A stretch of 39,440 bases of DNA from a virus. The number at the start of each line of letters is the position of its first letter. Position 1 is the first letter of the stretch. The DNA lies in the IMG/VR virus record IMGVR_UViG_3300034096_000737, positions 1-39,440 of that record; one strand, given 5' to 3'. Under the pieces are notes generated by a model. The model saw only the letters and a list, made by a program, of their open reading frames with translations. It made no database searches and was not told the DNA's origin. This document shows positions 364 through 31,932 of the stretch, one piece after another. The position numbers and the translations under genes are program-made.

Positions 364-780
364 ATGCCTAACAAACTAAACGCCTACCTCGACCCGCTGA
401 AACTTCAGGGCGCGGTTTTGATGACCCTGAAAGACAAGACCGGCGCACCGACCGAGTGCCTGGTGATCCCGTTGAAAAACTCGCGGATTCGCCGGGCGGA
501 ACGATCTGGCAAGCTCGGGTTGTCCATCGACCTGGTGCCGAATCGGGATGGCAAAGACGAGTTTGGCAACACGCACTGGATCAAGGAAAGCACCACGAAG
601 GCGGAACGCGAAAGCGCCACGCCGCCGAATCTGCCGTTTCTTGGCAATGCCCGCGAGTATGACGCTGCCACAGGCGGCCAGCGCACGGCGCGGCCTGCCG
701 GTGGTGTGCTGGTGACGGGCGTTGGCGGCGATTCAGCGCCGATGGCGGAGGGGATGGAAGACGATGAGATACCGTTTTGA
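364..780 (+). CDS. ssb: Single-stranded DNA-binding-like protein
   Basis: A 138-residue protein. Its last residues, DDEIPF after an acidic stretch, match the conserved C-terminal tip by which bacterial SSB proteins recruit partners. The N-terminal 90 residues are rich in beta-forming segments, with basic positions at KNSRIRRAERSGK, suitable for an OB fold. I cannot confirm the fold by eye, so the call rests on the tip and on the context at the end of the replication operon. The stop codon directly abuts the outermost attC box at 781. The first 11 bases of the gene, ATGCCTAACAA, are also found at the attI core (4017-4027), which is odd. Confidence 0.6.
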   Translation: MPNKLNAYLDPLKLQGAVLMTLKDKTGAPTECLVIPLKNSRIRRAERSGKLGLSIDLVPNRDGKDEFGNTHWIKESTTKAERESATPPNLPFLGNAREYDAATGGQRTARPAGGVLVTGVGGDSAPMAEGMEDDEIPF

Positions 781-873
781 CCGCAACACTCTCCCATGAG
801 GAGGGCGTAAAGGAGAAACTATGACACCTACGACATCACCGCCCTCCGAATTGGGAGCAGCACATGGTTCAGC
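781..873 (-). other. attC recombination site (attC5, distal end of array 1)
   Basis: Read on the minus strand the site begins GCTGAAC (867-873) and ends GTTGCGG (781-787). Two stems fold it. CTCCCA 791-796 pairs with TGGGAG 852-857, and GGAGGGCG 800-807 pairs with CGCCCTCC 840-847. The internal loop is 3 against 4 bases, so the extra base is on the arm next to the first box, as in family attC sites. Nine bases separate stem and box on that side, as in the other attC sites of this array. The start codon of the HAD gene (821) lies in the apical loop. Confidence 0.75.
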
Positions 874-1345
874 CTGGAAGGTGATCTTTTTGGACATTGA
901 CGGCGTTCTCTCATCATTCGGCCTTCGTGGACTTTGCGGAACGAGGCTCGACCTATTCGCCGACATCGTGAAGCAGACGGGCGCGGAGGTGGTGCTATCA
1001 TCAACATGGAGATATCCACACTGCCGTGATCAACGCATGAGGCTGCAACAGGAACTTGGAAAGCGAGATGTGGAGTTCTTCGGCATGACTCCGATTGTTG
1101 GGACGAATCGCGGTCAAGAAATTAAGCAATGGCTCAGCTCAGCCAGTCGCCGCCATCAGATCAACTTCGTGATTCTCGATGACGATCCGAACAATGAAAT
1201 GGGCGAGCTAAAACCAAATCTTGTCAAATGTGACGGATACTCAGGACTCACGCCCGACATCGCCGCAGAGGTGGTGCGTCGGCTGAACGCTCAATCTCTG
1301 CCAACCCTGGGGCACGACCAGGGCAACACGACAAAGGCCCAATAA
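821..1345 (+). CDS. HAD-superfamily phosphatase-like protein (HAD_SAK type)
   Basis: A 174-residue protein with the HAD signatures in order. FLDIDGVL at about residues 24-31 has the nucleophile and acid-base aspartates, VVLSSTWR at about 58-65 holds the motif II serine, and VILDDDPNN near 126 holds the acidic motif IV residues. The arrangement with SSTWR and RGQEIKQWL resembles the small HAD domains linked to nucleic-acid repair proteins, which remove 3' or 5' phosphates. Substrate is not determinable. The gene is the content of the outermost cassette. It starts inside attC5, is preceded by AAAGGAGAAACT as a good ribosome binding site, and ends inside attC4. Its third codon positions look less GC-rich than those of the phage structural genes, which fits acquisition. 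Confidence 0.75.
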   Translation: MTPTTSPPSELGAAHGSAWKVIFLDIDGVLSSFGLRGLCGTRLDLFADIVKQTGAEVVLSSTWRYPHCRDQRMRLQQELGKRDVEFFGMTPIVGTNRGQEIKQWLSSASRRHQINFVILDDDPNNEMGELKPNLVKCDGYSGLTPDIAAEVVRRLNAQSLPTLGHDQGNTTKAQ

Positions 1346-1417
1346 CATGACCGAAGCAAGCACACTAACAATGACCCAAGACCAGCCCCAGAGGTTGGCA
1401 GCAGAGCCGGGTTGTCC
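1282..1417 (-). other. attC recombination site (attC4)
   Basis: On the minus strand it runs from GGACAAC (1411-1417) to GTTCAGC (1282-1288). CTGCCAACC 1298-1306 pairs with GGTTGGCAG 1393-1401, and CTGGGGC 1307-1313 pairs with GCCCCAG 1385-1391. A single unpaired A at 1392 lies on the first-box arm, like an extrahelical base. Sixteen pairs with one bulge plus terminal AAC/GTT boxes make this one of the best sites. Nine bases separate stem and box. The stop of the HAD gene and the ATG at 1347 lie in its loop. Confidence 0.85.
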
Positions 1418-1769
1418 TCCCGAATGGCTGGAAGAGATAGTCGAAACTATCGGCATTACCGATGGCGTCGATCTCGTTGAATGGCACCTAGACCAGACGG
1501 GCGACTACATCGTCAAAATCGAATACGGCGAGGAAGAAATGAGCTTCCGCGCGGGCACAGATGGCGAGAGCCACGGCCAAGACTACGATGGCACAATCAT
1601 CGACATGACCACGACGGATCAAGTGCAGTGGTGGTGCGCTGGTGAACTCTACACGCGGCTCCAAAGGGCCAAGCGCAAGATCGAGGACTTGGAGGCGAAC
1701 GTCCCTGCTCTGGCAGCAAGCCTGGCGGAAAACTCAAACCAAGCGACTGATACCCAAGATGAAAACTGA
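1347..1769 (+). CDS. Hypothetical acidic cassette protein
   Basis: A 140-residue acidic protein with no family I recognise. Residues 20-75 look like a compact alpha/beta domain (PPEWLEEIVETIG, then VEWHLDQTGDYIVKIEYGEEE). The C-terminal third is helical (LYTRLQRAKRKIEDLEANVPALAASL), probably a short coiled coil. The first 23 or so residues are encoded by attC4. The start is one base after the HAD stop, so translation is probably coupled. The gene is the only ORF of its cassette (about 1288-1699) and ends inside the next candidate attC. Confidence 0.7.
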   Translation: MTEASTLTMTQDQPQRLAAEPGCPPEWLEEIVETIGITDGVDLVEWHLDQTGDYIVKIEYGEEEMSFRAGTDGESHGQDYDGTIIDMTTTDQVQWWCAGELYTRLQRAKRKIEDLEANVPALAASLAENSNQATDTQDEN

Positions 1770-1820
1770 CCCGATACTCCAAGAAGCTGGCGAAGCTTGC
1801 CAGCAGCAGGCTTGTTCGGC
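1694..1820 (-). other. Candidate attC site (attC3, weak fold)
   Basis: The right part is clearly related to the other sites: CCAGCAGCAGGCTTGTTCGGC-like sequence ending at 1820 matches the GGCAGCAGCGTCTTGTTAGGC-like end of attC2 apart from a few bases. The left box would be GGCGAAC 1694-1700 (GTTCGCC on the minus strand). Pairing is CTGGC 1710-1714 with GCCAG 1799-1803 and AAGC 1718-1721 with GCTT 1795-1798, with a bulge on the less usual side. A local hairpin at 1786-1804 competes. It holds the stop at 1769 and the start at 1759, as the other sites do. Confidence 0.45.
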
Positions 1821-2070
1821 TTCTGCTCGCCGTCATGCCGACAATGTGTGGTGCATTGTGTATGCGGAACATAGTGCGCGATACCAGCATGAGGTAAAAT
1901 GCACAGGCGCGGCGTGCGACTACTTCGAGGCCAAGCGCAAAGTCGTGGATGCACAAGCTTTAGCCGACCCAAGAGTGATCGACGCAAACCGGCTGGCCTA
2001 TGGTGAGCCGAACGGCATGGATGAGAGGGCGCGAAGCTCGACATCCTCAACCACTCACAGCACACTATGA
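1759..2070 (+). CDS. Hypothetical cassette protein
   Basis: A 103-residue protein of unknown function. It overlaps the end of the preceding gene by 11 bases and the next gene by ATGA, so it sits in a tightly coupled set. I chose the ATG at 1759 because it lies in the loop of the candidate attC, as starts in the neighbouring cassettes do. The centre (VWCIVYAEHSARYQHEVKC, then CDYFEAKRKVVDAQALAD) suggests beta strands and a helix with three cysteines. The N-terminal 20 residues (QEAGEACQQQACSAS) are attC-encoded. Confidence 0.6.
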   Translation: MKTDPILQEAGEACQQQACSASARRHADNVWCIVYAEHSARYQHEVKCTGAACDYFEAKRKVVDAQALADPRVIDANRLAYGEPNGMDERARSSTSSTTHSTL

Positions 2071-2399
2071 GCGATCTTCCTCCATCCAATTGTTCTGCCT
2101 GCCCTCAGTGCCGAGGGTTTAAGATCATTCTGAACTTCCACGGGCAGAGCTTGGGGCAATGCGATATGTGTGAAGGTGCTGGCATCATGCCTGAGTGCGT
2201 TAACAGGTGGCACGCCTATGGCCAAAGGCTCAAGGCTGAGCGCATCTATCGACGAATGACACTTCGAGCGGCAGCTAGGCATCTTGGCATAGACGCCTCC
2301 AATCTGTCGAAGATGGAACGCGGAATCATCGCGCCTCGTGGTCTTTGGCAGAACGCTTCAAGTCTGGCGACGGCGGGCGCTGGACTACCGAAACCATAA
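2067..2399 (+). CDS. Zinc-ribbon plus helix-turn-helix protein
   Basis: A 110-residue protein. Residues 9-36 contain CPQCRG and CDMCEGAG, a DnaJ-like pair of CxxC knuckles. Residues 48-85 read GQRLKAERIYRRMTLRAAA and then HLGIDASNLSKMERG, the pattern of a Cro/C1-type helix-turn-helix. The combination suggests a small DNA-binding regulator. The tail after residue 88 (APRGLWQNASS) does not continue the HTH domain, so the end may have been altered by a frameshift or a junction. It starts with an ATGA overlap with the gene before it. Confidence 0.7.
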   Translation: MSDLPPSNCSACPQCRGFKIILNFHGQSLGQCDMCEGAGIMPECVNRWHAYGQRLKAERIYRRMTLRAAARHLGIDASNLSKMERGIIAPRGLWQNASSLATAGAGLPKP

Positions 2400-2402
2400 A
2401 CA

Positions 2403-2422
2403 GGCAACGGCCCGCCGTTGCC
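2403..2422. terminator. Eight-base-pair hairpin without a T-tract
   Basis: GGCAACGG and CCGTTGCC form a perfect stem around a CCCG loop just after the zinc-ribbon gene. No run of T follows on either strand, so it may be only a weak terminator or a processing hairpin. Confidence 0.35.
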
Positions 2423-2463
2423 AGCACTGCCGGGTTCTCCGGCGAACTACCCAAACCAACACC

Positions 2464-2766
2464 ATGAGAAAAATCATACCAGAAGACAGACTCGATAGAA
2501 TCCTCAAGTCCACAGACCTGCGGAAACTGATCGAGCAAACCGAAACAACAACAGCCCGTGGAAATGTGATCTGTCCATGGTGTCACGATACCCAATCTTT
2601 CCGCATCTCCGAGAAGCATCAAAGCTATCATTGCTTTTGCTGTGGACGTGGCGGTAACGCGATCCGTTGGATGATGGAACGCAAGGGGATGGGATTCCGC
2701 GAGGCCGCTAAGAAACTGGAGGAGAACAACCAGCTCTGCCAGAAGCGGGGCGAAACCAAACTTTGA
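2464..2766 (+). CDS. CHC2-like zinc-finger protein (DnaG N-terminal domain type)
   Basis: A 100-residue protein made almost only of the zinc-binding domain of bacterial primases. VICPWCHDTQSFRIS at about 33-47 and YHCFCCGRGGNAIRWMM at about 53-69 provide CxxC and CxxC ligands and the glycine-rich turn. The following helix FREAAKKLEE matches the family's usual continuation. There is no catalytic TOPRIM part, so it is not a full primase; it could be a DNA-binding regulator or a remnant. The ATG at 2464 was chosen because upstream residues in this frame do not look like protein. The last 14 or so residues are encoded by attC2, and the gene shares a cassette with the two genes before it. Confidence 0.75.
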   Translation: MRKIIPEDRLDRILKSTDLRKLIEQTETTTARGNVICPWCHDTQSFRISEKHQSYHCFCCGRGGNAIRWMMERKGMGFREAAKKLEENNQLCQKRGETKL

Positions 2767-2818
2767 AATCATGACCGACATCACCGCCCCGATTCTTGGC
2801 AGCAGCGTCTTGTTAGGC
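2724..2818 (-). other. attC recombination site (attC2)
   Basis: On the minus strand it begins GCCTAACAAG (2809-2818), the commonest start of attC sites. CTGCCA 2736-2741 pairs with TGGCAG 2797-2802, GAA with TTC, and CGGGGCG 2746-2752 with CGCCCCG 2785-2791. The middle segment is 4 bases on one side and 5 on the other, giving one extrahelical base on the first-box arm. Nine bases lie between stem and box. The other end carries AAC at 2728-2730 (GTTGTTC on the minus strand), a degenerate second box. Confidence 0.85.
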
Positions 2819-3484
2819 CCCGTTGGTCTAGCGCATGGCATAAGGCCGTATTACCAAGACGCAGCCGTTACCATATATCATGGAGACAATCGCGTCATCA
2901 TGCCGCAACTCGCTCCGTTCGATCTCCTACTGACTGACCCGCCGTATGGGATCGGGGCGGACAATCGAAAGCGCATTCTGTCGCGGAGGAAGTTGGCTGC
3001 CGCCAAAGACTACGGAGAACAAAACTGGGATGCCGATGTGGTCGATGAATGGGTGATGTTCCTCGCTCGAAGACTTGGAAGAAAGCAGATCATCTTCGGG
3101 GGAAACTATTACGACCTGCCTCCGACGAAATGCTGGCTGGTATGGGACAAGCTAAACGGGGAGAATGACTTTGCTGACTGCGAGCTTGCATGGACGAACC
3201 TGGAGCGAGCTGTAAGGCGAAAGACTCATTTATGGAATGGGATGCTACGCAAAGGCGGAGAGGATCGTGACCACCCAACGCAAAAGCCGCTGGAGGTAAT
3301 CTCATGGGCGCTCCAGCTCGCTGGAGACGTGACGACAGTGCTCGACCCGTGGGCAGGCTCAGGAACAACCGGACGTGCCTGCAAAGACCTCGGCAAGCTG
3401 TGCGTGCTTATCGAGCGAGAGGAACGCTACTGCGAGGTAGCAGCCCAACGCATGGAACAAGAAGTGCTCCCGCTAGGGGCCTAA
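2771..3484 (+). CDS. DNA adenine/cytosine-N4 methyltransferase (beta class)
   Basis: A 237-residue SAM-dependent DNA methyltransferase. The catalytic motif LLLTDPPYGIG is at about residues 54-64. The cofactor motif VLDPWAGSGTTGRA comes later, at about 189-202, giving the beta order. HPTQKPLEV at about 170 is the conserved segment before it. FGGNYYDLPPTKCWLVWDK is typical of phage orphan methylases. No restriction endonuclease is next to it, so protection of phage DNA against host restriction is the likely role (inference). The ATG lies in the loop of attC2, and the TAA is the TAA of the GCCTAAC box of attC1. The whole gene is therefore bounded by recombination sites. Confidence 0.88.
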   Translation: MTDITAPILGSSVLLGPVGLAHGIRPYYQDAAVTIYHGDNRVIMPQLAPFDLLLTDPPYGIGADNRKRILSRRKLAAAKDYGEQNWDADVVDEWVMFLARRLGRKQIIFGGNYYDLPPTKCWLVWDKLNGENDFADCELAWTNLERAVRRKTHLWNGMLRKGGEDRDHPTQKPLEVISWALQLAGDVTTVLDPWAGSGTTGRACKDLGKLCVLIEREERYCEVAAQRMEQEVLPLGA

Positions 3485-3610
3485 CGCCAGCGGTGAGCCG
3501 CGCCCCCTCGAATGACTATGAACACCACGACTGAAACCCTGACCCTCGAAAGCCCTGCGCAGGCCGCCAGCGTGACCAGCGGGGGTGTTGGCTCTAGCGC
3601 CTTGTTGGGC
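3479..3610 (-). other. attC recombination site (attC1, proximal to attI)
   Basis: On the minus strand it begins GCCCAACAAG and ends GCTGGCGTTAGGC, both textbook attC ends. GAGCC 3495-3499 pairs with GGCTC 3590-3594 and CCCCC 3503-3507 with GGGGG 3581-3585. Three bases face four, so the extra base is again on the first-box arm. Nine bases separate stem and box (3595-3603). The long loop holds the ATG of the Dam-type gene at 3512. The stop of the previous methylase is inside the box at 3482-3484. Confidence 0.85.
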
Positions 3611-4042
3611 TCCGTTCATTTTTCGAGCGCGTCCGATGAATGGCCAACGCCTCGCGCCTACTTTGAAACGGTGGAACGTGAGTTCGGCCCCTTCGACCTC
3701 GACCCGTGCGCAACGCCTGCCAGCGCCAAGGCTCCCAAATACTTCACGAAAGCAGACGACGGCCTCGCCCAAGAATGGCGCGGGCGCGTGTGGATGAATC
3801 CGCCCTACGGTCGCACCATCGGCGCGTGGATGCGGAAAGCCTACGAAGCCGCGCAAGCCGGGGCTGTGGTGGTGTGCCTAGTGCCAGCCCGCACGGACAC
3901 CGCATGGTGGCACGACTACGCAGCCAAAGGCACCGTCCGCTTCCTGCGCGGGCGGTTGAAGTTCGGAGACGCCAAGAACTCCGCGCCCTTCCCCTCGGCT
4001 CTCGTCGTCTTTGGTATGCCTAACAAGAATTATCCAGACTGA
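3512..4042 (+). CDS. Phage Dam-type DNA N6-adenine methyltransferase
   Basis: A 176-residue protein of the phage N6-adenine methylase family. DEWPTPRAYFETVEREFG followed by FDLDPCATP near residues 48-74 is the family hallmark. VWMNPPYGRTIGAW at about 93-106 carries the NPPY catalytic motif. VVCLVPARTDTAWWHDY and the RFLRGRLKFGD strand follow as expected. It likely modifies phage DNA to evade restriction. The first 33 residues are encoded by attC1 and are not part of the family. The last six, NKNYPD, and the stop are encoded by attI1. Its cassette (about 3485-4023) is the one next to attI, so by integron logic the most recent insertion. Confidence 0.9.
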   Translation: MTMNTTTETLTLESPAQAASVTSGGVGSSALLGSVHFSSASDEWPTPRAYFETVEREFGPFDLDPCATPASAKAPKYFTKADDGLAQEWRGRVWMNPPYGRTIGAWMRKAYEAAQAGAVVVCLVPARTDTAWWHDYAAKGTVRFLRGRLKFGDAKNSAPFPSALVVFGMPNKNYPD

Positions 4043-4078
4043 CTTTTCCGCTCAACACCTGCAAAACCGGAAATATTC
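4018..4078 (-). other. attI recombination site (attI1) beside the integron integrase
   Basis: On the minus strand it reads towards the cassettes and ends TTCTTGTTAGGCAT, the GTTAGGC core expected at an attI/cassette joint. The core is at 4018-4024, so the crossover would fall between 4023 and 4024. A second copy of about 57 bases lies at 31365-31420 in the opposite orientation, with about 48 aligned matches including TTTCCGGTTTTGC and GTCTGGATA. The conservation of this otherwise non-coding stretch in both places identifies it as the integrase's primary site. It lies 8 bases upstream of the integrase ATG. Confidence 0.85.
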
Positions 4079-4086
4079 TAAAACTT

Positions 4087-5091
4087 ATGAACCTGCGTGA
4101 TACACTGGAACAAGTTCGGCTGACGTGCCGCATGCGGCGGTTGTCGAGGCACACGGAAGAGTCTTATGCTGGGTGGATCGTGCGGTTTGCCAGGCATGTA
4201 GCCAGCAGGGCGGAAGAGTCACGGGAGGAGCGGGTGCGGAGTTTTCTGGAGCAGATGGCCCCGTGTTGCTCGGCATCGACGCAAAACCAGGCTTTGAATG
4301 CCATCGTGTTCTTTTACCGCGATGTGCTGCGGCAGCCGCTGGGTGATCTGGGGAAGTGGGCGCGGGCGAAACGGCCGGCACGGCTGCCGTCGTGGCTGAG
4401 TCCTGACGAGATGCGGCGTTTGTTCGATGCGATGACACCGGGGCCGCGACTGATGGCGCAGGTGGCGTATGGCAGCGGCGTGAGACTGGCGGAACTGCTG
4501 GCGCTGCGGGTGAAGGACATCGACCTCGATGCGTGCCTCATCACGGTGCGCGGCGGCAAGGGTGACAAAGACCGTGTGACATGCCTGCCTCGCTCGCTGG
4601 TGTTCACGTTGCGGGCGCATTTGGAGCGCATTCGGTTGCTTTACGATGCCGACCGCCAGGCGGGGGCGATGCCGGTGTATCTGCCGGACCAACTGGAGCG
4701 CAAATATCCAAACGCAGGCCGTGAGTGGCCGTGGTTTTGGCTGTGGCCTGCGGCGAATGAAAGCACCGATCCACGCAGCGGCATCGTGCGCAGGCATCAC
4801 ATCCATGAGGACACGCTGGGCAAGGCGCTGAAGAATGCCCGCCGTCGCTGCGGACTGAGCAAACGAGTCACGGCGCACACGCTGCGTCATAGCTTTGCCA
4901 CGAACTTGCTGGCGAACGGCGCGAGTATTACTCAGGTGCAGGAATTGCTCGGGCACAGCAGCGTGGAAACGACGCAAATTTACACGCACTGCATTCCGCA
5001 GTTTGCCCGCAGCATCACGAGTCCGATGGACACGCTGCCGCAACCTGAGAATGTCGTGCCGTTTGAAGCGCAAGCAAGGAGGGCGGCATGA
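4087..5091 (+). CDS. intI: Integron-type tyrosine recombinase (IntI)
   Basis: A 334-residue integrase, close to the usual IntI length. The catalytic set reads R133 (in GSGVRLAELLALR), K158 (in RGGKGDKDR), H264 and R267 (in HTLRHSFATNLL), H290 (in LLGHSS) and Y299 (in TTQIYTH). The IntI-only insert lies at about 200-245: KYPNAGREWPWFWLWPA followed by DPRSGIVRRHHIHE. It separates IntI from XerC/D and phage integrases, and in the family it binds the extrahelical bases of folded attC sites. IntI inserts and excises cassettes at attI and attC. The gene is transcribed away from attI1, the canonical geometry. It ends by ATGA overlap with the small terminase gene, so it is expressed with the packaging operon. 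No LexA box is obvious upstream. Confidence 0.95.
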   Translation: MNLRDTLEQVRLTCRMRRLSRHTEESYAGWIVRFARHVASRAEESREERVRSFLEQMAPCCSASTQNQALNAIVFFYRDVLRQPLGDLGKWARAKRPARLPSWLSPDEMRRLFDAMTPGPRLMAQVAYGSGVRLAELLALRVKDIDLDACLITVRGGKGDKDRVTCLPRSLVFTLRAHLERIRLLYDADRQAGAMPVYLPDQLERKYPNAGREWPWFWLWPAANESTDPRSGIVRRHHIHEDTLGKALKNARRRCGLSKRVTAHTLRHSFATNLLANGASITQVQELLGHSSVETTQIYTHCIPQFARSITSPMDTLPQPENVVPFEAQARRAA

Positions 5092-7985: not shown

Positions 7986-10271
7986 ATGCCCACACTCGAT
8001 TTAGATTCAGACGATGAATCCCTGCACGTCGTTGAAAGCGACGAAACTCTTGATCCCGCCTGGGTGATTGACGAGCTGATGGTGTCACTCACCGATCTGG
8101 GGCCGTGGATTCAGGACATGCAGGACCATGAACGCACGGCGCTGGCCGTGTGGGCGGGGCAGTCGCAGGACGGGCGGAAGCACGCGGCGAACTACGGCAA
8201 GAAGGTGTTCCCCTTTGAAGGGGCGGCGGATTCCCGCGTGCATCTGGCGGGCGCGGCGATTGACGAGCTTACCATGCTGGAAATGCTGGCGATTGAATCC
8301 GCCAAGGTTCAGGTCATTGCGATGGAAAGCAGCGATGCCGCCGCAAGCAAGAAGGTGGAGACGCTGATGAAATACGAGACGCGGCAGCGCATGCGCAACG
8401 AGCTTTGGCGCGAGCGCAATTTTGCGCGGCAGATCAAGCACACCTGGGGCCATGCCGTGATGCACGTTGGCTGGGAGCAGCGCATGGGCACGGCGCAGGC
8501 CACGGTGAGCGTGGACGATTTGATCGCCGATCACACGCAGACGAAGCTGGCCGAGGCCCGCATCCAGGCCGCCGACGCGGGTATGCAGCCGCTCGATGAA
8601 TCCGGGGAACTGCTCACCGCCGAGCAGCAGCTTGCTATCGCCGATGCCGCCGAGGTGGAGGTGAACGATTTCCTGCGCTCCGACGATCGCGCGCCGCTGG
8701 TGGCGATGATCCGCCGCAGGCATCCGCTGCTTTCTCCCATCCGGGCGCGGCGTGCCGCCAAGGAGCTGCGGGGCGAGGACAGCGTGACGTTTGCCGCGCC
8801 GTATCGCAAACCGGGCAAGCCGTGCGTGCGTGCGTATCTGCCGGGCATTGACGTGTTTTATCCGCACTGGTGCGGCCAGGTGGACCGTGCGCCCTGGGTG
8901 GCGCATGTGGAGCAATACAGCGAGCCGGAGCTGCGGGCGAAAGCCAAGACGGACGGCTGGAATCAGGACGCCATCGACGCGCTGCTGAAGCTGGGGCCGA
9001 AGCCGGTGGTGGACAGCTCCGCCGTGCTGCACACCGTCGCCGCCAGCGTGGAGCGCATCTTGAACGAACCGGCGCGGGACACCTTCACCGCCCGCTATCG
9101 CAACCGCGAGCAGACGTGGTATGAAGTGCTGCGCATCACGGTGCAGACGGTGGATGAGGAATGCTTTCCCGCCGTGCAAGAGATCATCTTGCATCCGGGG
9201 CTGGTGGGCAAAAACCGGCGCAAGGAGGACAACGAGCTGCTGTTCGTGAACCGGCTGCTGGATTACTACTTTGACGGCGGCTGTTATGTCGATCTGCGCC
9301 GTGAATACAAGGCGCGGCCGTTGTTTGAGAGCCGTGGCGTGCCGGAGCTGGTGGGCACGCATCAATACCTGCTTAAGAGCACGCGGGATGCGAGCATGGA
9401 CCGGACGAGCTTTGCCACCATGCCGATCGTGAAGGTGTCCGCACGCCGGGCTGGCAGCGGAACGCGCTGGGACTACGAGCCGGGCAGCAAGCTGCCGCTG
9501 GCCTCCGGCGATGAGGCGGACTACATGCGCCCGCCGCCGCTCGACCAGGGCACGGTGCTGGACAGCAACGAGATCCGCAAGGACGTGGCCGATTTGCTCG
9601 GGCTGCATCACGGCGACATCGTGCCGGCCAAGGTGCAGATGCACCAGCAATGGATTGTCACCACGGCGCTGATGGAAGAGCGCGAGATTCTGCTGCGCAT
9701 TCTCGCGCTGGATCAGCAGTTCATGGACCCGCTTTATGTGTCCCGCGTGCTCGGCAACGGGCCGCTGCCGTTCCAAGTCACCCGCGAGGAGATCGCGGGC
9801 AGCTTTGATTTTGTGCTGGAGTTTGATGTGAAATCGCTGGATATGGAATACTTGCAGAAGCGGTGGAGCGCCCTCAAGGATGCGTTCAGCATTCCCGGCG
9901 TGGCGGGACAACTGCCCACAGTGCCGGTGGTGTCCTGGCTGCTGAACAACATCGACCCCGGCCTCTCCGATCTTGTCACCGGCAGCCTCACCGAACGCAA
10001 TGCGGCTGAAGGCGAGGAGGAAAAAGCGGCCATCGCCATGCTGCTCACGGGCGTGGAGCCGACTGTGACGGAGAGCATGGATGCCGCCACCCGCTTGCAG
10101 GTGGATCAGGAGCAGATGCAGAAGAATCCGGCCGTGGCGCAGGCGTATGCGGCGGGCGGCATGTTCACCGAAATGATGAACCGGCGCATGCAGGCGTTCC
10201 AGTTTGCCATCCAGCAGCGCACCGAGAATGCGCAGACGGGGCGGACGGGATTCAAGCCGGTGGTGGAGTAG
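7986..10271 (+). CDS. Portal protein
   Basis: A 761-residue protein directly after the terminase. The length is that of the long portals of podoviruses. VFPFEGAADSRVHLAGAAIDELT at about 74-96 matches the segment by which this portal group is recognised. A long central region carries LLGLHHGDIVPAKVQMHQQW near 537-556 and DFVLEFDVKSLDMEYLQKRW near 614-633. The C-terminal 60 residues are helical and Gln/Ala-rich (AVAQAYAAGGMFTEMMNRRM), fitting a barrel. Twelve copies would form the DNA channel and dock the terminase. Confidence 0.85.
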   Translation: MPTLDLDSDDESLHVVESDETLDPAWVIDELMVSLTDLGPWIQDMQDHERTALAVWAGQSQDGRKHAANYGKKVFPFEGAADSRVHLAGAAIDELTMLEMLAIESAKVQVIAMESSDAAASKKVETLMKYETRQRMRNELWRERNFARQIKHTWGHAVMHVGWEQRMGTAQATVSVDDLIADHTQTKLAEARIQAADAGMQPLDESGELLTAEQQLAIADAAEVEVNDFLRSDDRAPLVAMIRRRHPLLSPIRARRAAKELRGEDSVTFAAPYRKPGKPCVRAYLPGIDVFYPHWCGQVDRAPWVAHVEQYSEPELRAKAKTDGWNQDAIDALLKLGPKPVVDSSAVLHTVAASVERILNEPARDTFTARYRNREQTWYEVLRITVQTVDEECFPAVQEIILHPGLVGKNRRKEDNELLFVNRLLDYYFDGGCYVDLRREYKARPLFESRGVPELVGTHQYLLKSTRDASMDRTSFATMPIVKVSARRAGSGTRWDYEPGSKLPLASGDEADYMRPPPLDQGTVLDSNEIRKDVADLLGLHHGDIVPAKVQMHQQWIVTTALMEEREILLRILALDQQFMDPLYVSRVLGNGPLPFQVTREEIAGSFDFVLEFDVKSLDMEYLQKRWSALKDAFSIPGVAGQLPTVPVVSWLLNNIDPGLSDLVTGSLTERNAAEGEEEKAAIAMLLTGVEPTVTESMDAATRLQVDQEQMQKNPAVAQAYAAGGMFTEMMNRRMQAFQFAIQQRTENAQTGRTGFKPVVE

Positions 10272-13115: not shown

Positions 13116-13613
13116 ATGGCTGACCAAGCAGTTACCCTCTCCACCGCCACCAGCGCCAGCAATGGCGTCAAGATCGCCGTTCTCTCGGCAGAAGTCGCCG
13201 CGCAGACCGGCTTCACGCACGCCTTCCGCGTGCCGTTCGACATCCTCAACAACTCCTCGTGGACCACGCAGGGCGATACCGTCACGGTCACGCTCGGCAC
13301 CACTTCGGCCCGCTACCAGGTGGACCGCGTGGCGGTCAACGTCCCGACGGCCTTTGCCACCACCGGCACGCTTACTCTCAGCGTCGGCACCAGCAGCAAT
13401 ACCGCGCTGGCTCTCGCCGCCGCGAGCTGCAAGAGCGACACGCAGCTCACCGCTGCCGCTGGTTGTGTCACGGCCAACAAGGTCGAAGGCACCAGCGCTG
13501 CCACGCTGCAATGCCGCTTCACCACGCAGGGCAGCACCGGAGCCCCGTCGGACATCACCGCAGGCGTCGCCGAGATCTTCCTGCGGATCATCGACGTGGC
13601 CGCGCTGATCTAA
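13116..13613 (+). CDS. Beta-rich structural protein, possible decoration or minor capsid protein
   Basis: A 165-residue Thr/Ala/Ser-rich protein with alternating strands (DTVTVTLGTTSARYQVDRVAVNV, GTLTLSVGTSSNT), consistent with a beta sandwich. It follows the capsid gene by 89 bases, has a good ribosome binding site (GAAAGGACACC), and has its own transcript segment after the capsid terminator. Decoration protein, head fibre or minor head protein are all possible. I recognise no family. Confidence 0.65.
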   Translation: MADQAVTLSTATSASNGVKIAVLSAEVAAQTGFTHAFRVPFDILNNSSWTTQGDTVTVTLGTTSARYQVDRVAVNVPTAFATTGTLTLSVGTSSNTALALAAASCKSDTQLTAAAGCVTANKVEGTSAATLQCRFTTQGSTGAPSDITAGVAEIFLRIIDVAALI

Positions 13614-13617
13614 TGTT

Positions 13618-13746
13618 TTGCCGTCGATCCTGACGGCAAACCCAACGCCTCACAGCACAACCTGCTGCGACTCGGATCAAACCGGGCCGCAGCAGGGGTG
13701 AAGGCGGTTCCTTGTTCGTTGTTCTTAGTTTTCGCCTCTCTGACTC
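13618..13746. other. Intergenic region with two hairpins and a GTTCGTTGTTC repeat
   Basis: TTTGCCGTC pairs with GACGGCAAA (13618-13641) and CTGCTGCG with CGCAGCAG (ending near 13695). Neither has a plus-strand T-tract; the first has one only upstream. From about 13708 to the ATG the bases are reiterated CCTTGTTCGTTGTTCTTAG words, the reverse complement of the AACCAAGAAC class seen at 38618-38641. Confidence 0.6.
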
Positions 13747-14163
13747 ATGTTTGACTCCGAAGAACTCATCGCCGAGCTGCACGCGCAGGGTGGTCCTGCG
13801 CTGGTTGCCGCTGTGGAGAAGGAGTTCCGCACGGGCTGGGAATTGCAGAAGCACATCGCGCTGCAACGCGAGCAATCCCGCGCCGAGGTGGGCCATGCCC
13901 GCAGCGGGGCCGTGGAGGGGCTGGGCTACATCTCCAGCAGCATCGACGCGAACAGTTACTTCTACTGGCTGAACAAAGGCCGGAAGGACATGGGCTGCGA
14001 GAATCTGTGGAAAGAGGAGGAGTGGCGGCGCGACTACGCACGCACCAATCCGCAAACCGTCGTCAAGTATCAAAGCCTCGTGCCGTTCAGCGGGTGGACG
14101 CCGCCGCGTGATGGCGTGCGCCTCGTGACTGGCAGCAAGTATGGGATGGGGGTGGCCGCATGA
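13747..14163 (+). CDS. Hypothetical head-completion-region protein
   Basis: A 138-residue protein. The N-terminal half is helical (SEELIAELHAQGG, LVAAVEKEFRTGWELQKHIAL). The second half contains a short aromatic segment (SYFYWLNKGRKDMGC and EEEWRRDYARTNP). It overlaps the next gene by ATGA. The place between capsid and adaptor genes suggests a virion or assembly role, but no family is recognised. Confidence 0.6.
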   Translation: MFDSEELIAELHAQGGPALVAAVEKEFRTGWELQKHIALQREQSRAEVGHARSGAVEGLGYISSSIDANSYFYWLNKGRKDMGCENLWKEEEWRRDYARTNPQTVVKYQSLVPFSGWTPPRDGVRLVTGSKYGMGVAA

Positions 14164-24900: not shown

Positions 24901-27900
24901 TCTCAACCCTCGCCACCAGCGCCTCAACAGCAAATGCTGAACTCACCGCCCTCTGGCGCTCCGGTTACCAGGCCGCGCCCAACACGGTAGACACCGTTCG
25001 AGGCGGTGAGCACACGCTTGAACTCAAAGGAAAGCGTTATTTCAAACAGACGCATCCCGAGAAATTTGGGGCCGTGTTTGATCCGGCCACACCTGAAGTG
25101 CTAGGTTGGGGCACGCCGCTGCAATACCTGCAACGCTGGCGCTTGTTTAACGAGCTTTTCCCCGGTGCTGATGTGCGTTTTGAAGGCGTGGTGATGCACC
25201 CCAACGGGCAAGTGAGCCTGAAAATCTCCCAGCCCGTGCTGCAAGGCACCAAACCTACGGCGGAGGAGATTACTGAGGTGCTGACTCAAGACGGTTGGCG
25301 CAAGACCTCTCTGAACACCTGGCGGAAAGGCGGTTTGCTGATGAGCGATGCCAAGCCGGATAATTTCCTCAAGCTGGCAGATGGCTTGATCGTGCCCGTG
25401 GATCTGGTGCTGCAAGAAGGCATGGCAGAAGCTCCGCTGATGAATCCCGCTGCCGAACAGCGCGAGAACCGCAGCGCCTTTGCCCGGCCAGAGCAGGCTG
25501 CCCGCATGTATGAAGTGCAGGGCAATGACGTGATGATGACCGAGGCCGCGCAATGGCTGGCGGGTGTGGACAATGCCACCGCCGTGCAGCAGCTCGAAAG
25601 CGGCCTGCCACCGGCAGGACTGCGCAAGGATCACTTGCCCGCGCTGGCGGAGCAGACCATGCAACGGCTGGTGCAGACGATGGCGAGCGACAAGGAGCTG
25701 GTGCGCCTGCAAGCCGAGGCGTTGCTGGATCGTGCTGGCATTGCCTGGCAGGACGTGATCAACCGCGAGGCGGGCCGCGGACTGCAACAAGTCGGCGCGG
25801 CGAATGCGCGTCTGCTTCCCATCGCCCCGATTTTGGCAACCAAACGCATTTTGGTGCAACGCGCCGAGGTGGTGATGGACAAAAGGTTTGAAGGCGGTGC
25901 CGAGGGCGCGGTGGAGAAGGTCAAGGGCATCATTCAGAAAGCCGACACGCAGGCCAGCACCGAAGTGGCACAGGCGGTGCAAGACACGGTGGAGATGGCC
26001 CCGCCCGTGGACCCTGCCGCCGCCCGTGCGGCGGTGAATGCTATCACCCAGACGGCGCGGACCTACTTTGGCGGAACGCTGCCGCCGCGTGTGAAGATCC
26101 TGCATCAAGATCAGGCCGAATGGGATGCCCGCATGAATGGCAATGTGCTGGAGCTGAACGCCGCCGCTTTGGAGACATCGCAAGTGGTGGGCAAGATCGA
26201 GCATGAAATCGGGCACCTGCTGTTTCAAGATCCGGCGATGCGCCAGCAGTTTGACGCGCTGTGGAATAGCCTGGACGTGAATGAGCGGGCGCAGATCGAG
26301 AACATCACCGCCGTGCTCTACGATGCCGCGAACCGCAACGAGGAAGCCAGCGTGCGAGCACTGGATGCCGTGCGGCAGATGGTGGAGGCTAAGAACCCCG
26401 GCCTGTGGCAGCGCTTTGTGACCTGGCTCCGGCAAGCCTGGGAACGTCTCACGGGCCGCCTGCCGGGTGATCCGCGCCGACTGGCCGCCGTGATGATCGA
26501 AACCGGCGTGGCCCGACTCAAAGGCGTGGAAGGCAACCAGACCGAGGTGCGCGAGTCCCGCCGCTCGGATCTGCTGAAAGTGAACTCACCGCAACTGGCC
26601 CGGCTGCTGAACTCACTCCGCATCAAAGTGGCTCCTGGCCTGAAATGGCGCGACATCTTCACCGACATGCCCGCCACGCAACTGGAGCGGCAGCGCGAAA
26701 TCTACAAGCGCCTGATGCAGCATCAAGCGTTGCAAAACCTGAGCGCCGCTGAACGTCTGCAACTCACCAACGAACTGGACAAAGCCTGGCAGCGTGAGCG
26801 CCGGAAGGTGTTCAACAAAGAGCTGGAAAAGGCGGGTGTGCTCGGAGAGAAGGACAAGACCGACCGCGTGAAGGCCAAGGCCGTGCTGCCGAAGATGCTC
26901 CGCATGATCAACCTGGGCATGTTTGACAGCGCTGCCTGGCGGGATGCCGTGGCCCCACAATATGGCCTGCGCGTGCTCACAAGCGCCGACACCGCGCAAC
27001 TGCGCACGCTGGCGGAGGCCGCGTGGAAGCTGCCGGAGGGGGTGATTCGCAACCAGAAGCTCCGCGATCTGCTGAACGCCATTCAGAAGAAGACCGGCGC
27101 GAGCTGGATCGAAGTGCTGAACTCTTACTGGACCGCCGCTGTGCTGTCCGGCCTGCGCACGCAGTTTGACACCTGGATGTCTGCCATCAACGGCATGGGC
27201 ACGAACCTGATGCAGATCGGCGGACTCGTGGCCCGAGGCCGTGGCCGTGCCGCGATCGACGCGCATGCTCAGTGGTGGCGCGGCCTGTTTGAAGGCGTGC
27301 GCGAGAGCGGGCAAATCCTGTTCAAGGGAGATACCAGCTACCTGAAACGCTTTGGCGCGGACCTGAAAAAGGCGCTGGAGGGAGAGACGACCGTGACGCC
27401 TGTGCTGCTGGGAGAAAACCTGTGGAAGAACGGCAACACGTTTTACAAATACGGGCTGGCTCCGGTGATGATGTTCACGGGCCGCCTGATGGCTGCCGCT
27501 GACCACATCAACAACACGGCCACCACGCAGGGGGCGATTGCCGTGGCACGGGCGCTGCATCCTGAACTCTACCAGGGCAAGGTGGGATTCACCGAGACCG
27601 AACGCGCCGACGCTCGCGCTCAAGCCCTGCGCGAAGTGACCGGCGGCAACGAGCCGAAGACCAGCCAAGAACGCGCCACCGTGAGCGCTCGCACGCGGGA
27701 AATCCTGAATGGCACGGTGAAACCTGCCGACTACGCCGCCGCGTCAGAGATCGGCGACATGGCAGCCTATCAGAACGACCCCACCGGGCTGTTCGGCGTG
27801 GTTTACAGCGCGATGAAGCAGGGACTCGGCAGCATTCAGCGCGGGCTGGGTGATTATGCGGAGGATGTGACAGCGAACCGCTTTGCACGCGTGGTTTCCG

Positions 27901-29012
27901 GCATGATGGCCGGTTCCTTGCACGGCATCACCGGCACGCGGTTCATGCGCTTCGGTGCGAACTTCGGCGCGGATCTGACCCGTTACATCCCCGGCAGCTA
28001 TGTGCTGGGCAAGGCGGGCTTCTATGGCCGCGACGTGAGCCGCATGCAGCAGGAGCTGCTGCTCGGCAAGAACCTCGTGGGCCTGATGCTGGCAAGCACG
28101 CTGGCGGCGGTCTTTCTGAACAGTGACGATGAAGACGAGGGCTGGCAGATTGAAGGCGACTGGAGCACCCTGAACCCGCAGCAGGCCAAGGAACGCATGG
28201 CCGCAGGCTACGAGCGCCTGACGATGTGGAAACGCGACGGCGATCAAGTGCGGCGCGTGAGCTACAAGCAATGGCCGACCATGGGCCTGTTTGCCGTAGT
28301 GGGCGGCATGCTGGATGAGAAGCGCCACAAACCCGCAAGCTGGGCACAGCACGGCACGGCGGGCCATCTCCTGCGCGGCGTGGCCACCGGCTACACGCAG
28401 GTAAAGAACGTGTCAGCCGTGCGCAATCTGGTGGAACTCTTCGGCGAGCCGACTTTCAGCGCGGATGCGGTGAGCGGCACGATTGACAAGATGATCAAGA
28501 TCGGCACGAACTTTGCGGGCGGATTCATGCCCACGCTGATCAAGGACGCGGAGGCCTGGACTGATCCGCGCAACTTCAAACCCGAGGGCACGGCGGAGCT
28601 GATGCTGCGGAGCATGGTCATCGCCCGCAAATTTGTGAACGATGGCCGGCCCCAGCTCAATCTGCTGGGTGAAGAGGTCAAACTGCAACGCGCTCCGTGG
28701 AGTCGGGCCTATACCAGCGTGGAGAGCGGCGAGGCGCATCGCGTGCTGGGTGCCCTGCTGGCCCGTGGACTGGCCCTGCCGATGCCGAGCGATCAAATCA
28801 GCGTGTTCAAGAACGGCGTCAAGGTGCCGCTGGAAAGCCTGGGCCGTGAAGCCGTGTGGAAATACGAGAAGGCCGTGGGCCAAGGCTACAAAGAATGGCT
28901 CTACCTCGAAGGCTCCGACCTGCTGCAAATGCCCGTGAAGCAGGCCGCCAAGGTGATCGAGCAGCGGGCCGCGAGCATCAAGCGGCAGGCGCTAGCGCGG
29001 GTGGTGCGGTGA
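21954..29012 (+). CDS. Giant polyvalent protein: two zincin-like proteases and a kinase-like domain
   Basis: A 2,352-residue protein. In order: an N-terminal start that resembles a phage linker domain (YELTSAHTGKTYVIEGDGTP), then Gly/Ala/Met-rich helices to about 320. A low-complexity linker of about 300 residues follows, full of reiterated host-like words. Next comes a first zincin with VHELLHH near 783 and DEFIAALF after it. A kinase-like domain has ELKGKRYFKQTHPEKFG near 1022 and LMSDAKPDNFLKLADGLIVPVDL near 1129-1151. A second zincin has KIEHEIGHLLF near 1413. A C-terminal 900-residue helical region includes one hydrophobic segment (LVGLMLASTLAAVFLN). Such 'polyvalent' proteins are known to enter the host with phage DNA and carry several effector domains against host defences. 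Here that is inference from the domains. Confidence 0.75.
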   Translation: MPRYELTSAHTGKTYVIEGDGTPTEDDMVDIGRQLDEQTVRQAGIDPALLQQTPVGTVANTVRNIGPEFVDMAVGGLAKLNETLGRSPLGIVSPLALANRATEMVTGINPLARTAEATQVIRETGEDMRPVNPFNPTARTIGSAINQVGGMVATGGLATAAGMAPATAMTAIPAGIGFAAGAGQGIDTARQMGITDPTAQAGMGMAFGGVEMATERLGGIGGDVVNRFIRPQSLLGRAALNVASESGEEVLAGRAQDALTVGAGQFVSDPNRPGFTRSGFELPSLNPLNPQTLERMQQEAIGGAAGGVVFSGLQALSPNASVTKESGPTADQTVQQAAGAGLSPAAGSPSPSPLGGIARRAGTVDVAPLVPGLEEDTGALTAQDVQDLERGRGGDNRTIGQGDNETIRQGDNQTGRQAILTNVPDAVTQPDNGPAQTITGSNVQTGTEMPVPPPTADAGAGAGATVPDAQGVGQAMSDTPQVSPSPSLPVSESPAPLMLPSRNFTGGLASQLEGSAASLGRNAARGTRNPEPITNNSSLSSAYTQASRGSSSAMVPISRVYEQAKAQNPALTVPQFLAEVQAADQRGEVLLEPFDSPAGLQAAGEFVVRNASGVPSVNMAVPSPQGMTNEEGRRTNGLRNPAERGSGAGINADESPAPVNPESSRAEGGTLASPAELKAAQKSNEAKLAALGLPVKPGTRIWAASKMRTALGKIAKDGSYPATMRAMADLLTRVNLDNLLLKVEADARLNFAGKYQPYNDGRGEISLNTRVTGRGDTDIVQSLVHELLHHATYRALRSPKNAVQKGAIADLEALRKRALAALSAQEQGRQFDYELSNTDEFIAALFTRADFQTALAGIPAESAPKSLTQRIRSVLDEIFRVLGELVTGKKVEPGSVLEASMAATLRLMEDGKPSLPSRLGNAVMMNGEGRMTNDGALQMPVEKAAAKSKVNDDQGDYMGQAGWQSFRDAIGVIDPRASANAGVSTLATSASTANAELTALWRSGYQAAPNTVDTVRGGEHTLELKGKRYFKQTHPEKFGAVFDPATPEVLGWGTPLQYLQRWRLFNELFPGADVRFEGVVMHPNGQVSLKISQPVLQGTKPTAEEITEVLTQDGWRKTSLNTWRKGGLLMSDAKPDNFLKLADGLIVPVDLVLQEGMAEAPLMNPAAEQRENRSAFARPEQAARMYEVQGNDVMMTEAAQWLAGVDNATAVQQLESGLPPAGLRKDHLPALAEQTMQRLVQTMASDKELVRLQAEALLDRAGIAWQDVINREAGRGLQQVGAANARLLPIAPILATKRILVQRAEVVMDKRFEGGAEGAVEKVKGIIQKADTQASTEVAQAVQDTVEMAPPVDPAAARAAVNAITQTARTYFGGTLPPRVKILHQDQAEWDARMNGNVLELNAAALETSQVVGKIEHEIGHLLFQDPAMRQQFDALWNSLDVNERAQIENITAVLYDAANRNEEASVRALDAVRQMVEAKNPGLWQRFVTWLRQAWERLTGRLPGDPRRLAAVMIETGVARLKGVEGNQTEVRESRRSDLLKVNSPQLARLLNSLRIKVAPGLKWRDIFTDMPATQLERQREIYKRLMQHQALQNLSAAERLQLTNELDKAWQRERRKVFNKELEKAGVLGEKDKTDRVKAKAVLPKMLRMINLGMFDSAAWRDAVAPQYGLRVLTSADTAQLRTLAEAAWKLPEGVIRNQKLRDLLNAIQKKTGASWIEVLNSYWTAAVLSGLRTQFDTWMSAINGMGTNLMQIGGLVARGRGRAAIDAHAQWWRGLFEGVRESGQILFKGDTSYLKRFGADLKKALEGETTVTPVLLGENLWKNGNTFYKYGLAPVMMFTGRLMAAADHINNTATTQGAIAVARALHPELYQGKVGFTETERADARAQALREVTGGNEPKTSQERATVSARTREILNGTVKPADYAAASEIGDMAAYQNDPTGLFGVVYSAMKQGLGSIQRGLGDYAEDVTANRFARVVSGMMAGSLHGITGTRFMRFGANFGADLTRYIPGSYVLGKAGFYGRDVSRMQQELLLGKNLVGLMLASTLAAVFLNSDDEDEGWQIEGDWSTLNPQQAKERMAAGYERLTMWKRDGDQVRRVSYKQWPTMGLFAVVGGMLDEKRHKPASWAQHGTAGHLLRGVATGYTQVKNVSAVRNLVELFGEPTFSADAVSGTIDKMIKIGTNFAGGFMPTLIKDAEAWTDPRNFKPEGTAELMLRSMVIARKFVNDGRPQLNLLGEEVKLQRAPWSRAYTSVESGEAHRVLGALLARGLALPMPSDQISVFKNGVKVPLESLGREAVWKYEKAVGQGYKEWLYLEGSDLLQMPVKQAAKVIEQRAASIKRQALARVVR
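23127..23215 (+). repeat. In-frame GACAATCAGACA tandem repeat inside the polyvalent gene
   Basis: The same words that lie between genes at 7692 and 10273 are here translated, as DNRTIGQGDNETIRQGDNQT. Related tracts follow within the same linker: TCTCCCCGTCTCCGTCTC words at about 23391-23435, CCCAGAACCCATCACC at about 23540-23565, and GACGAATGAGGAAGGACGAA at 23832-23862. Another tract lies at 24727-24760. The reading frame survives all of them. Confidence 0.85.
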
Positions 29013-29039
29013 GTTGACAGGCGTGGTAGGGTGAAGACC

Positions 29040-29659: not shown

Positions 29660-29890
29660 ATGAAACTCCCCGATGAATTGACTCCGCAGGAGCATGGCGT
29701 TATTAAAACGGCTCTGCTGGAATTGGAAACACGCAACGCTGTCTGGCTGAAGGACTCGCATTGGTCGCCTGAGATGCGGGCGGGTTTGCAGCGGGATATG
29801 GAGCAGGCTAGTGCGCTGCGCGAGAAGTTGCGCGAGGTGTATCTGGTGCCGATGGCACGCCATTGGAGCAAAGGGAGGGCGGCACGATGA
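29660..29890 (+). CDS. Small helical protein coupled to the phage integrase
   Basis: A 76-residue helical protein (LTPQEHGVIKTALLELETRN, MRAGLQRDMEQASALREKLRE) starting at MKLPDE. It overlaps the integrase start by ATGA. It may be an excisionase-like or accessory partner, but has no recognisable DNA-binding motif. The ATG at 29660 was preferred to a longer start that would run into the attP arm repeats. Confidence 0.55.
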   Translation: MKLPDELTPQEHGVIKTALLELETRNAVWLKDSHWSPEMRAGLQRDMEQASALREKLREVYLVPMARHWSKGRAAR

Positions 29891-31364: not shown

Positions 31365-31420
31365 GAATGTTTCCGGTTTTGCGGGTGCTAACCGGAAATG
31401 TTGTCTGGATAGTTCTTGTT
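31365..31420 (+). other. Second attI site (attI2), inverted relative to attI1
   Basis: About 48 of 57 aligned positions match the attI1 region read on the other strand, with one single-base gap. Runs TTTCCGGTTTTGC, CGGAAA, GTCTGGATA and TTCTTGTT are unchanged. The core is GTTCAGC (31418-31424) instead of GTTAGGC. Divergence of about 15% shows it is not a recent copy. The minus-strand gene 31388-31738 ends inside it with NKNYPDNISG. Confidence 0.85.
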
Positions 31421-31738: not shown

Positions 31739-31932
31739 GGCTGGATTTGATCGTTCTGGACACCGGCGAGAGTCGCTAGGTATTCGTAAAGTTCAAGGCT
31801 TCCGGCCTTCGCTCGCAGTCCGGCAACGGTGCCGTCAATGAGTCTATCGGCGAGCCGTTCGTTGCGGTTTGTGCGCTTGCTGCCCGGCACGGGTCCGGGC
31901 TTGCGTTTCTTGGTTGCTTTCTTCTTTGGCAT
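31735..31932 (-). CDS. Small very basic hypothetical protein
   Basis: A 65-residue protein. The first 25 residues are Lys/Arg/Pro-rich (MPKKKATKKRKPGPVPGSKR), as in nucleic-acid-binding tails. A helix follows (ERLADRLIDGTVAGLRAKAG, then LELYEYLATLAG). It is translationally coupled to the gene that ends in attI2 and probably acts with it. No family recognised. Confidence 0.6.
   Translation of the reverse strand: MPKKKATKKRKPGPVPGSKRTNRNERLADRLIDGTVAGLRAKAGSLELYEYLATLAGVQNDQIQP

Follow-up and report, generated by a model that had tools for sequence, protein, structure and literature searches.

Introduction

In typical integrons the integrase gene intI and the cassette genes diverge from the attachment site attI, whereas in Treponema intI points to attI (PMC3607928), and at the attC sites the strand is chosen by an unpaired base and joins are made in the R' box (PMC2727003). 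Integrons have also been reported from phages: Qi et al. (2023) found three complete integrons, one In0 and 17 clusters of attC sites lacking integron integrases (CALINs) in 10,705 phage genomes, and in experiments IntI1 recombined phage attC sites and attC sites of virulent phages joined attI1 (PMC9892861). The Shewanella phage M16-3 carries an attI at both its integron and its CALIN (PMC9892861), so that two attI sites in one phage are not new per se. Here we describe the integron of the viral record IMGVR_UViG_3300034096_000737, whose 39,440 nucleotides are called the window in the following, i.e., the whole stretch of DNA that was analyzed. A first-pass annotation made from the letters alone had proposed a complete integron inside a phage genome and had mentioned only sporadic reports of integrons from phages. 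The integron is indeed present, with intI, attI and cassettes in a complete genome that also encodes an SU10-type capsid protein and DnaB; complete integrons have been published from phages before, these being of bacterial types (PMC9892861). The ends of the window are identical over 127 bases (1–127 and 39314–39440), and the record is therefore a complete circle or a terminally redundant genome. We consider it very likely that this genome carries a phage-native integron, characterized by an all-viral IntI, two attI sites, cassette arrays, reversed cassette genes and exchange of cassettes between phages. Judged from the sequences, what is new here is this phage-native, reversed-cassette, two-attI integron; integrons in phages as such are already published (PMC9892861).

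Like the phages in PMC9892861, the window combines intI, attI and attC arrays with methyltransferase genes in cassettes. The complete integrons described there are of Vibrio, class 1 and Shewanella type, unlike the all-viral IntI clade of the window, and the arrays of TJE1 and PH101 are called typical in direction. The available excerpts of that paper mention neither an all-viral IntI clade nor reversed genes as a rule nor transfer of cassettes between phages. Our searches of open-access papers, preprints excluded, turned up no description of an IntI clade confined to phages or of cassettes that are reversed as a rule. M16-3 (MZ568829) resembles the window in its intI, its upstream array and its weak attC candidates (27.5–33.0) on the strand leading away from intI; it differs in that its annotated genes lie on the attC top strand (the canonical arrangement, with low-scoring attCs) and its IntI is 42% identical. 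The Treponema type shares with the window that intI and the cassette genes run in the same direction (PMC3607928), but there intI is flipped relative to attI, whereas in the window the genes are flipped and intI, attI and attC keep the usual arrangement. Treponema geometry is also seen in the virus Rctr41k (KX853513; locus L243, 4680–9434), with five attC candidates from a generic scan downstream of intI and canonical genes; Rctr41k is not listed in Tables 1 and 2 of PMC9892861. The sedentary chromosomal integrons of Verrucomicrobiota, finally, have similar attCs by the same model and the same attC direction relative to intI, but their genes are canonical and their IntIs at most 55% identical.

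Organization of the Integron

The integron consists of intI with its attI (attI-A) and an array A of seven cassettes, together with a second, integrase-less array B at 31.4–32.9 kb that has its own attI (attI-B). Relatives are referred to by locus numbers (L), attC scores are those of the position-specific model explained below, and the elements are as follows:

781–873, minus strand: attC of cassette A7 (785–1287) at the far end of array A, score 31.3
821–1345, plus strand: HAD_SAK_2 gene of cassette A7, extending into the next attC
1282–1417, minus strand: attC of cassette A6 (1287–1699; gene 1347–1769), score 53.1
1694–1820, minus strand: attC of cassette A5 (1699–2012), score 46.8; A5 is precisely missing in L003
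2007–2098, minus strand: attC of cassette A4 (2012–2353; helix-turn-helix (HTH) gene 2067–2399), score 28.6; excision junction of L003
2348–2440, minus strand: attC of cassette A3 (2353–2726), score 57.5; 93% identical copies in L004 and L007
2464 (ATG) to 2766: CHC2 zinc-finger gene of cassette A3
2721–2818, minus strand: attC of cassette A2 (2726–3484), score 55.3
2771–3484, plus strand: N6/N4 methyltransferase gene of cassette A2 (Pfam PF01555)
3479–3610, minus strand: attC of cassette A1 (3484–4024), score 47.5
3512–4042, plus strand: Dam-type methyltransferase gene of cassette A1, ending inside attI-A (Pfam PF05869)
4022–4078, minus strand: attI-A, crossover GTT 4023–4025
4087–5091, plus strand: intI, integron integrase of 334 amino acids
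31365–31420, plus strand: attI-B, without intI, crossover GTT 31418–31420
31635–31759, plus strand: attC of cassette B1 (31419–31754; gene 31388–31738 on the minus strand), score 49.0; the whole cassette recurs in L007
31735–31932 and 32034–32444, minus strand: open reading frames (ORFs) of block B2
32574–32631, plus strand: attC closing block B2 (31754–32626; possibly two cassettes), score 43.0
32806–32934, plus strand: attC of cassette B3 (32626–32929; gene 32619–32873 on the minus strand), score 41.7

All five attC-like folds of the first-pass annotation are real: four of them score 46.8–55.3 and the fifth, 781–873, scores 31.3. Of the intervals of cassette size in that annotation, the one of about 1030 bases comprises three cassettes, because two further attCs inside it (2007–2098 and 2348–2440) had been overlooked, and array A thus has seven cassettes and not five. 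Array B had been overlooked as well.

An Integron Integrase of a Viral Lineage

The protein encoded at 4087–5091 matches the TIGR02249 (integrase_gron) profile with 354.3 bits at a cut-off of 265, whereas all Xer profiles remain under their own cut-offs (XerC 151.4, cut-off 335; XerD 139.9, cut-off 330; XerA 162 bits), and so do the other recombinase models. It thus belongs neither to XerC/XerD nor to the ordinary phage integrases. In an alignment of the window protein with eight relatives, which are 64–96% identical to it, the residues R133, K158, H264, R267, H290 and Y299 are invariant and the IntI-specific insert is mostly so. The earlier recognition of IntI by its R-K-H-R-H-Y residues and its insert is thereby confirmed. 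In a tree of 126 IntI rows the window protein falls within an all-viral group, delimited at 17 rows with a Shimodaira-Hasegawa-like approximate likelihood ratio test (SH-aLRT) support of 96 and at 21 rows with 97. Viral stretches encoding a relative number 130. IntIs of the window type (62–100% identity) occur in at least 29 contigs among the 80 viral contigs listed, while bacterial IntI loci reach 43–53% identity among the best 80 of 541. In Verrucomicrobiota, 99 of 387 genomes contain an IntI at E 1e-70 or better, with a top identity of 55%. The 5' end of the window intI faces attI, i.e., the gene is not transcribed towards attI as in the Treponema type.

A second all-viral group, L129–L165 (12 rows, SH-aLRT 99), stands beside a Lentisphaerota IntI in the same tree; its arrays are hardly picked up by the attC model trained on the relatives of the window.

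The attI and attC Sites

On the minus strand attI-A reads ...TCTGGATAATTCTT/GTTAGGC, in which the slash precedes the crossover GTT (4023–4025); the stretch adjoining the intI start reads ...GATAATTCTT/GTT on the same strand. When the window and 11 relatives are aligned here, the rows are related up to the GTT and different beyond it, apart from L006 and L007, two near-identical phages that carry the same cassette (for L016 the GTT and the sequence beyond it were seen in a separate stretch, the aligned one having stopped at GT). This is the expected look of an attI loaded with differing cassettes, and the attI-like core GTTAGGC noticed at first pass beside the intI start is real. BLAST aligns attI-A (4022–4078) with 31420–31365, i.e., attI-B, at 84% identity over 57 bp; of the pattern searches, the first was too strict and a looser one missed attI-B, which BLAST recovered. 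The two sites lie ~12 kb apart on the circle, and both are present in the records behind L002, L003 and L005. In L007 an intI-bearing integron occupies the place equivalent to attI-B, where a homologue of the 459-amino-acid recombinase gene next to attI-B adjoins intI and is followed by a match to window 25460–29028. Given this position in L007, intI and attI probably moved in the lineage of the window to their present place between an SSB-like gene and the gene at 5088. A site without integron is seen in L020–L023: there, the matches to window 785 and 5103 are only ~60 bases apart, so that the SSB-like gene is followed after ~60 bases by the gene at 5088, and the contig behind L020 carries an integron at another place (L010). 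The phage of L115/L121 contains three arrays, with plus-strand sites at 57–1614, minus-strand sites beside intI and minus-strand sites at 13582–14064, the last having a second attI at 14273 (L115 coordinates).

attC sites were scored with a position-specific model, trained on 16 sites in related phages and on no site in the window itself, together with the pairing of both arms. In 20 simulated first-order Markov genomes, sites with a score of at least 30 appeared at 0.25 per genome, and the top score outside the arrays in the window is 34.1 at 13640–13720. Two sites are weak by score, 781–873 (31.3) and 2007–2098 (28.6), and each is backed by breakpoints in relatives; the homology of L004 and L020–L023, for instance, stops at 783–785, i.e., at attC 781–873. 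Furthermore, a covariance model of our own (R1) was built from 17 attC sites of relatives and run with default filters, as switching the filters off was worse for sites with long loops; across 33 related loci it returned 89 matches with E no higher than 1, a number that includes its own training sites and their copies. Hairpin strength as sole proof of attC was dropped, because comparable values occur elsewhere in the genome (−20.8 kcal/mol at 13640; 19.1 in a second scan); compared with shuffled sequences, fold energy reaches z ≤ −3 in only three of the ten window sites and is a weak witness alone. A MAFFT alignment of seven window attCs was discarded, as the 3' arms were misaligned.

The arm with unpaired bases, the R'-side joins and the position of attI agree on the direction of the sites. 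In 47 of the 57 attCs of the clade the excess of unpaired bases is on the 5' arm, as expected of the top strand, and in three the arms are equal; the same test on Verrucomicrobiota loci gave 38 sites with the expected arm, 18 with the other and four equal (n = 60). For array A, the attC top strand corresponds to the minus strand of the window, and for array B to the plus strand; in each array it leads away from attI, which is also the bacterial arrangement. L027 has a solitary weak attC at 9734–9825 (22.5 bits, E 0.0057), shortly before the terminase-like gene; it is perhaps a scar, the integron of that phage being elsewhere.

The Cassette Genes Are Reversed

Where the coding strand can be called, the attC lies on the 5' side of the cassette gene and the genes are directed towards attI, whereas attI, attC and intI keep their usual geometry. 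By coding potential, 21 of the 42 distinct cassettes of the clade are reversed and none is canonical, while 4 are unclear and 17 receive no call. Of 56 distinct bacterial cassettes, 16 are canonical and one is reversed, with 3 unclear and 36 uncalled (Fisher 7.6e-10 for the reversed and canonical counts). Codon scoring had been added because orientation by the longest ORF is noisy in GC-rich DNA. An earlier count of 47 clade cassettes (24 reversed, 0 canonical, 4 unclear, 19 no call) was replaced by the clustered recount, since L122 6187–8050 spans intI and L006 552–1508 and L007 8137–9091 are one cassette. In six other viral contigs with more distant IntIs, 21 distinct cassettes include 10 reversed, 0 canonical and 11 without a call (11 of 24 reversed when unclustered).

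The protein families, a test that does not depend on ORF length, agree with this strand. Pfam member families match 15 times in 63 gene-strand ORFs (44 from the clade, 19 from the other viral contigs) compared with 0 in 54 opposite-strand ORFs, and PHROGs families number 37 on the gene strand and 2 on the opposite one. Five of the 63 ORFs, all in the window, were added or re-cut by hand (821–1345, 3512–4042, 2067–2399, 2461–2766 and 31388–31738), while window 1642–2070 and 2338–2766 and L007 8183–9139 were left out of the set, which originally held 61; four of the five hand-chosen ORFs have Pfam hits, and without the five there are 11 matches in 58 versus 0 in 54. The phage integron therefore differs from the canonical bacterial arrangement, in which the genes lie on the attC top strand and are readable from the cassette promoter (Pc) at attI, and with 21 reversed and 0 canonical of 42 we do not file it as a canonical subtype. 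The genes of array B run against the main direction of the phage and are nevertheless reversed; the rule therefore seems to be a property of the cassette rather than of the way in which the phage is transcribed.

Among the 21 reversed clade cassettes, 14 have the start codon of their best ORF within the attC. Within the window such starts are found at 821, 1347, 2771 and 3512 on the plus strand and at 31738 and 32873 on the minus strand, and start 821 is preceded by AAGGAG, which resembles a ribosome site. In L115 (145–483, minus) and L124 (8781–9146, plus), different proteins have a common N-terminal leader of 25 residues (72% identical) within the attC, as if attC added a tag to each protein.

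Gain, Loss and Exchange of Cassettes

The relatives differ from the window by whole cassettes, with the variation anticipated at first pass appearing as breakpoints at or near 785, 1700, 2013, 2354 and 4024, and, for array B, at 31420 and 32624. Compared with the window, L003 lacks exactly one cassette (A5), with one exact join: its junction reads GGAGGCGAAC/GGCATGG, whereas the window reads GGAGGCGAAC/GTCCCTG and, 313 bases on, GAGCCGAAC/GGCATGG. The records of L002 and L003 match the window without a difference for 920 bases, as far as the GTT at 31420 (100% identity). Between this point and 32624 they carry different cassettes, after which 102 bases are once more 100% identical. Likewise, L007 and L009 share an array at 100% over 520 bases, and L007 has an extra 1.8 kb exactly at attI. 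Single cassettes also recur in other arrays: window 31418–31757 corresponds to L007 6075–6414 (340 bp, 90.3%) inside another array of a distant phage, and L004 988–1357 corresponds to L007 6080–5711 (370 bp, 90.5%), with ends at most 3 bases from crossovers in both partners. Across the relatives compared, the joins of exchanged cassettes lie at the GTT of the R' box. From these patterns we infer that the integron is active.

Cassette Cargo

The arrays of the window encode N6/N4 and Dam-type methyltransferases, HAD_SAK_2, HTH and CHC2 zinc-finger proteins, and genes without a family. Among the 63 gene-strand ORFs, Pfam names five C5 methyltransferases, two Acb2/Tad1 hairpin proteins and one each of Dam, N6/N4 methyltransferase, HAD_SAK, CHC2, RNA ligase, HTH, PAPS reductase and DUF5662; the result gives family counts and not the member ORFs. 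By their sequence, we tentatively assign the two Acb2/Tad1 matches to L007 6807–7190 (plus) and L124 9236–9547 (plus), as probable members of this family; the two proteins are 51% identical. Acb2 and Tad1 block signalling by CBASS (cyclic-oligonucleotide-based antiphage signalling system) and Thoeris. Some cassette genes look like tools against bacterial defences.

A Proposed Mechanism

During phage replication the attC bottom strand would become single-stranded and fold, and the phage IntI would recombine the folded strand with attI or with another attC, serving both attI sites; the SSB-like protein encoded next door may tune this recombination. The genes of array A would be read not from a Pc at attI but from a phage promoter of the replication operon at the far end, and those of array B from the region near a putative regulator gene (32976–33356). 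Many attCs would provide a start codon in their loop, one of them together with a recognizable ribosome site, and an inserted cassette could therefore be translated wherever it landed. A likely use would be the swapping of DNA-modification and counter-defence genes between phages. Taken further, and here we lean only slightly towards the proposal, a distinct type of integron would have arisen among phages, across several lineages of IntI. Its attC would have shifted ahead of the gene and would also start translation, by means of a loop start codon and an attC-encoded leader peptide. Phage promoters would drive transcription of the cassettes in the direction of attI, a single IntI would act on more than one attI site, and cassettes would pass chiefly from phage to phage, as a way of swapping counter-defence genes.

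If the integron is phage-native as described, a phage lineage, and not hosts alone, maintains a working integron through which it exchanges genes for DNA modification and perhaps for anti-defence; the recent gain and loss of cassettes is documented here by exact sequence comparison. The reversed genes breach the usual rule that cassettes are built for reading from a promoter at attI and raise the question of whether attC can be a recombination site and a translation start at once. Two attI sites with a single intI gene are a natural test of action at a distance, and new anti-defence genes may be sought among the cassettes without a known function in such arrays.

Alternative Explanations

Several observations weigh against a phage-native integron as described here. 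The attC scanner is custom-built. The covariance support expected by the first-pass annotation came out in part, R1 being significant at only two of the ten window sites (2348–2440, E 5.9e-9; 32574–32631, E 1.5e-6) and an Rfam search of the window giving no match at gathering scores. Seven of the 57 clade attCs have their unpaired bases on the opposite arm, and with GTT required by the scan the R' box fits GTTRRRY in 4 of 57 clade sites as compared with 28 of 60 in Verrucomicrobiota. As to the reversal, 21 of the 42 distinct clade cassettes have no firm call by coding potential, and the longest ORF gives 29 reversed, 9 canonical and 13 unclear of 51 clade cassettes, copies included (by the same scanner, 57 cassettes of bacterial loci comprise 40 canonical, 4 reversed and 13 unclear); proof of reversal thus does not extend to every cassette. 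Moreover, one window end of homology (2384, with L003) lies 31 bases off the crossover, inside the attC, and in 19 clade loci 64 of 146 ends of homology blocks, in arrays or not, fall 20 bases or less from a crossover (counting matches with a minimum of 60 bases and 80% identity).

The last two points would be accounted for by ordinary phage mosaicism, i.e., homologous or illegitimate recombination at short conserved hairpins with IntI as a passenger, as the attC arms are alike between phages and usable by homologous recombination and 82 of the 146 block ends are not near a crossover. We nevertheless regard this explanation as unlikely. Nine of 14 window ends lie at most 11 bases from a predicted crossover, where 5.9% of array positions lie within 12, and of the other five, two flank a small internal deletion, two are outside the arrays and one is the 31-base case. 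These 14 ends were listed by hand from the homology matches, excluding contig edges, an attC-only match (2343–2454), a 122-base match of 72% (3086–3207) and the starts of flanking homology (300–362 and 546). Furthermore, the change of sequence falls on the GTT at both attI-A and attI-B, and whole cassettes recur in other arrays.

Alternatively, the phage could have captured a piece of a host chromosomal integron, as in Vibrio anguillarum phages, and the integron would then have no history specific to phages. Captures of this kind are known from published phage genomes (PMC9892861), and Verrucomicrobiota attCs score well with the phage-trained model. Such a capture is still improbable, since the all-viral IntI clade spans 62–100% identity over at least 29 of the contigs listed, the nearest bacterial IntIs reach at most 55% among the best 80 of 541 loci and the 387 Verrucomicrobiota genomes, and the cassette genes are reversed relative to bacterial arrays. 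That the hairpins are terminators or regulatory hairpins of an operon beside a normal phage integrase, for which one may cite the seven of ten sites with fold energies not past z −3 and the second tyrosine recombinase of this phage, has next to no probability, given the TIGR02249 match with Xer models under their cut-offs, the agreement of 47 of 57 clade sites in the arm that bears the unpaired bases, the gain and loss of cassettes at the sites and the start codons inside several hairpins.

Neighboring Genes and Host

Two neighbors of the arrays are of interest:

364–780, plus strand: SSB-like gene, directly upstream of array A
29863–31242, plus strand: second tyrosine recombinase, 459 amino acids, beside attI-B; homologues 55–59%

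We take the product of 364–780 to be SSB-like from its acidic DDEIPF tail; profile searches of the window proteins gave no family match naming SSB. The 459-amino-acid protein has no Pfam or PHROGs match, but all 50 Foldseek matches listed (the best 50 of 88) for its low-confidence structure model (predicted template modelling score, pTM, 0.40) are tyrosine recombinases, headed by XerA and lambda integrase. By this model it is probably the phage's own integrase, and the phage may therefore be temperate.

Our guess for the host is a member of the Verrucomicrobiota. The phage-trained attC model scores well in loci of this phylum, which were over-sampled by choice (further loci were fetched from it), and has hits in other phyla too. 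Against this host stands that the terminase-like protein has a single weak match in the 387 Verrucomicrobiota genomes, among which neither this protein nor IntI has a close match; compared with phage records, the terminase-like protein has no match at 1e-5. Just upstream of array B, the gene at 32976–33356 on the minus strand encodes a small protein with only weak matches to phage transcription regulators (best such E 0.0035), which may control the transcription of array B.

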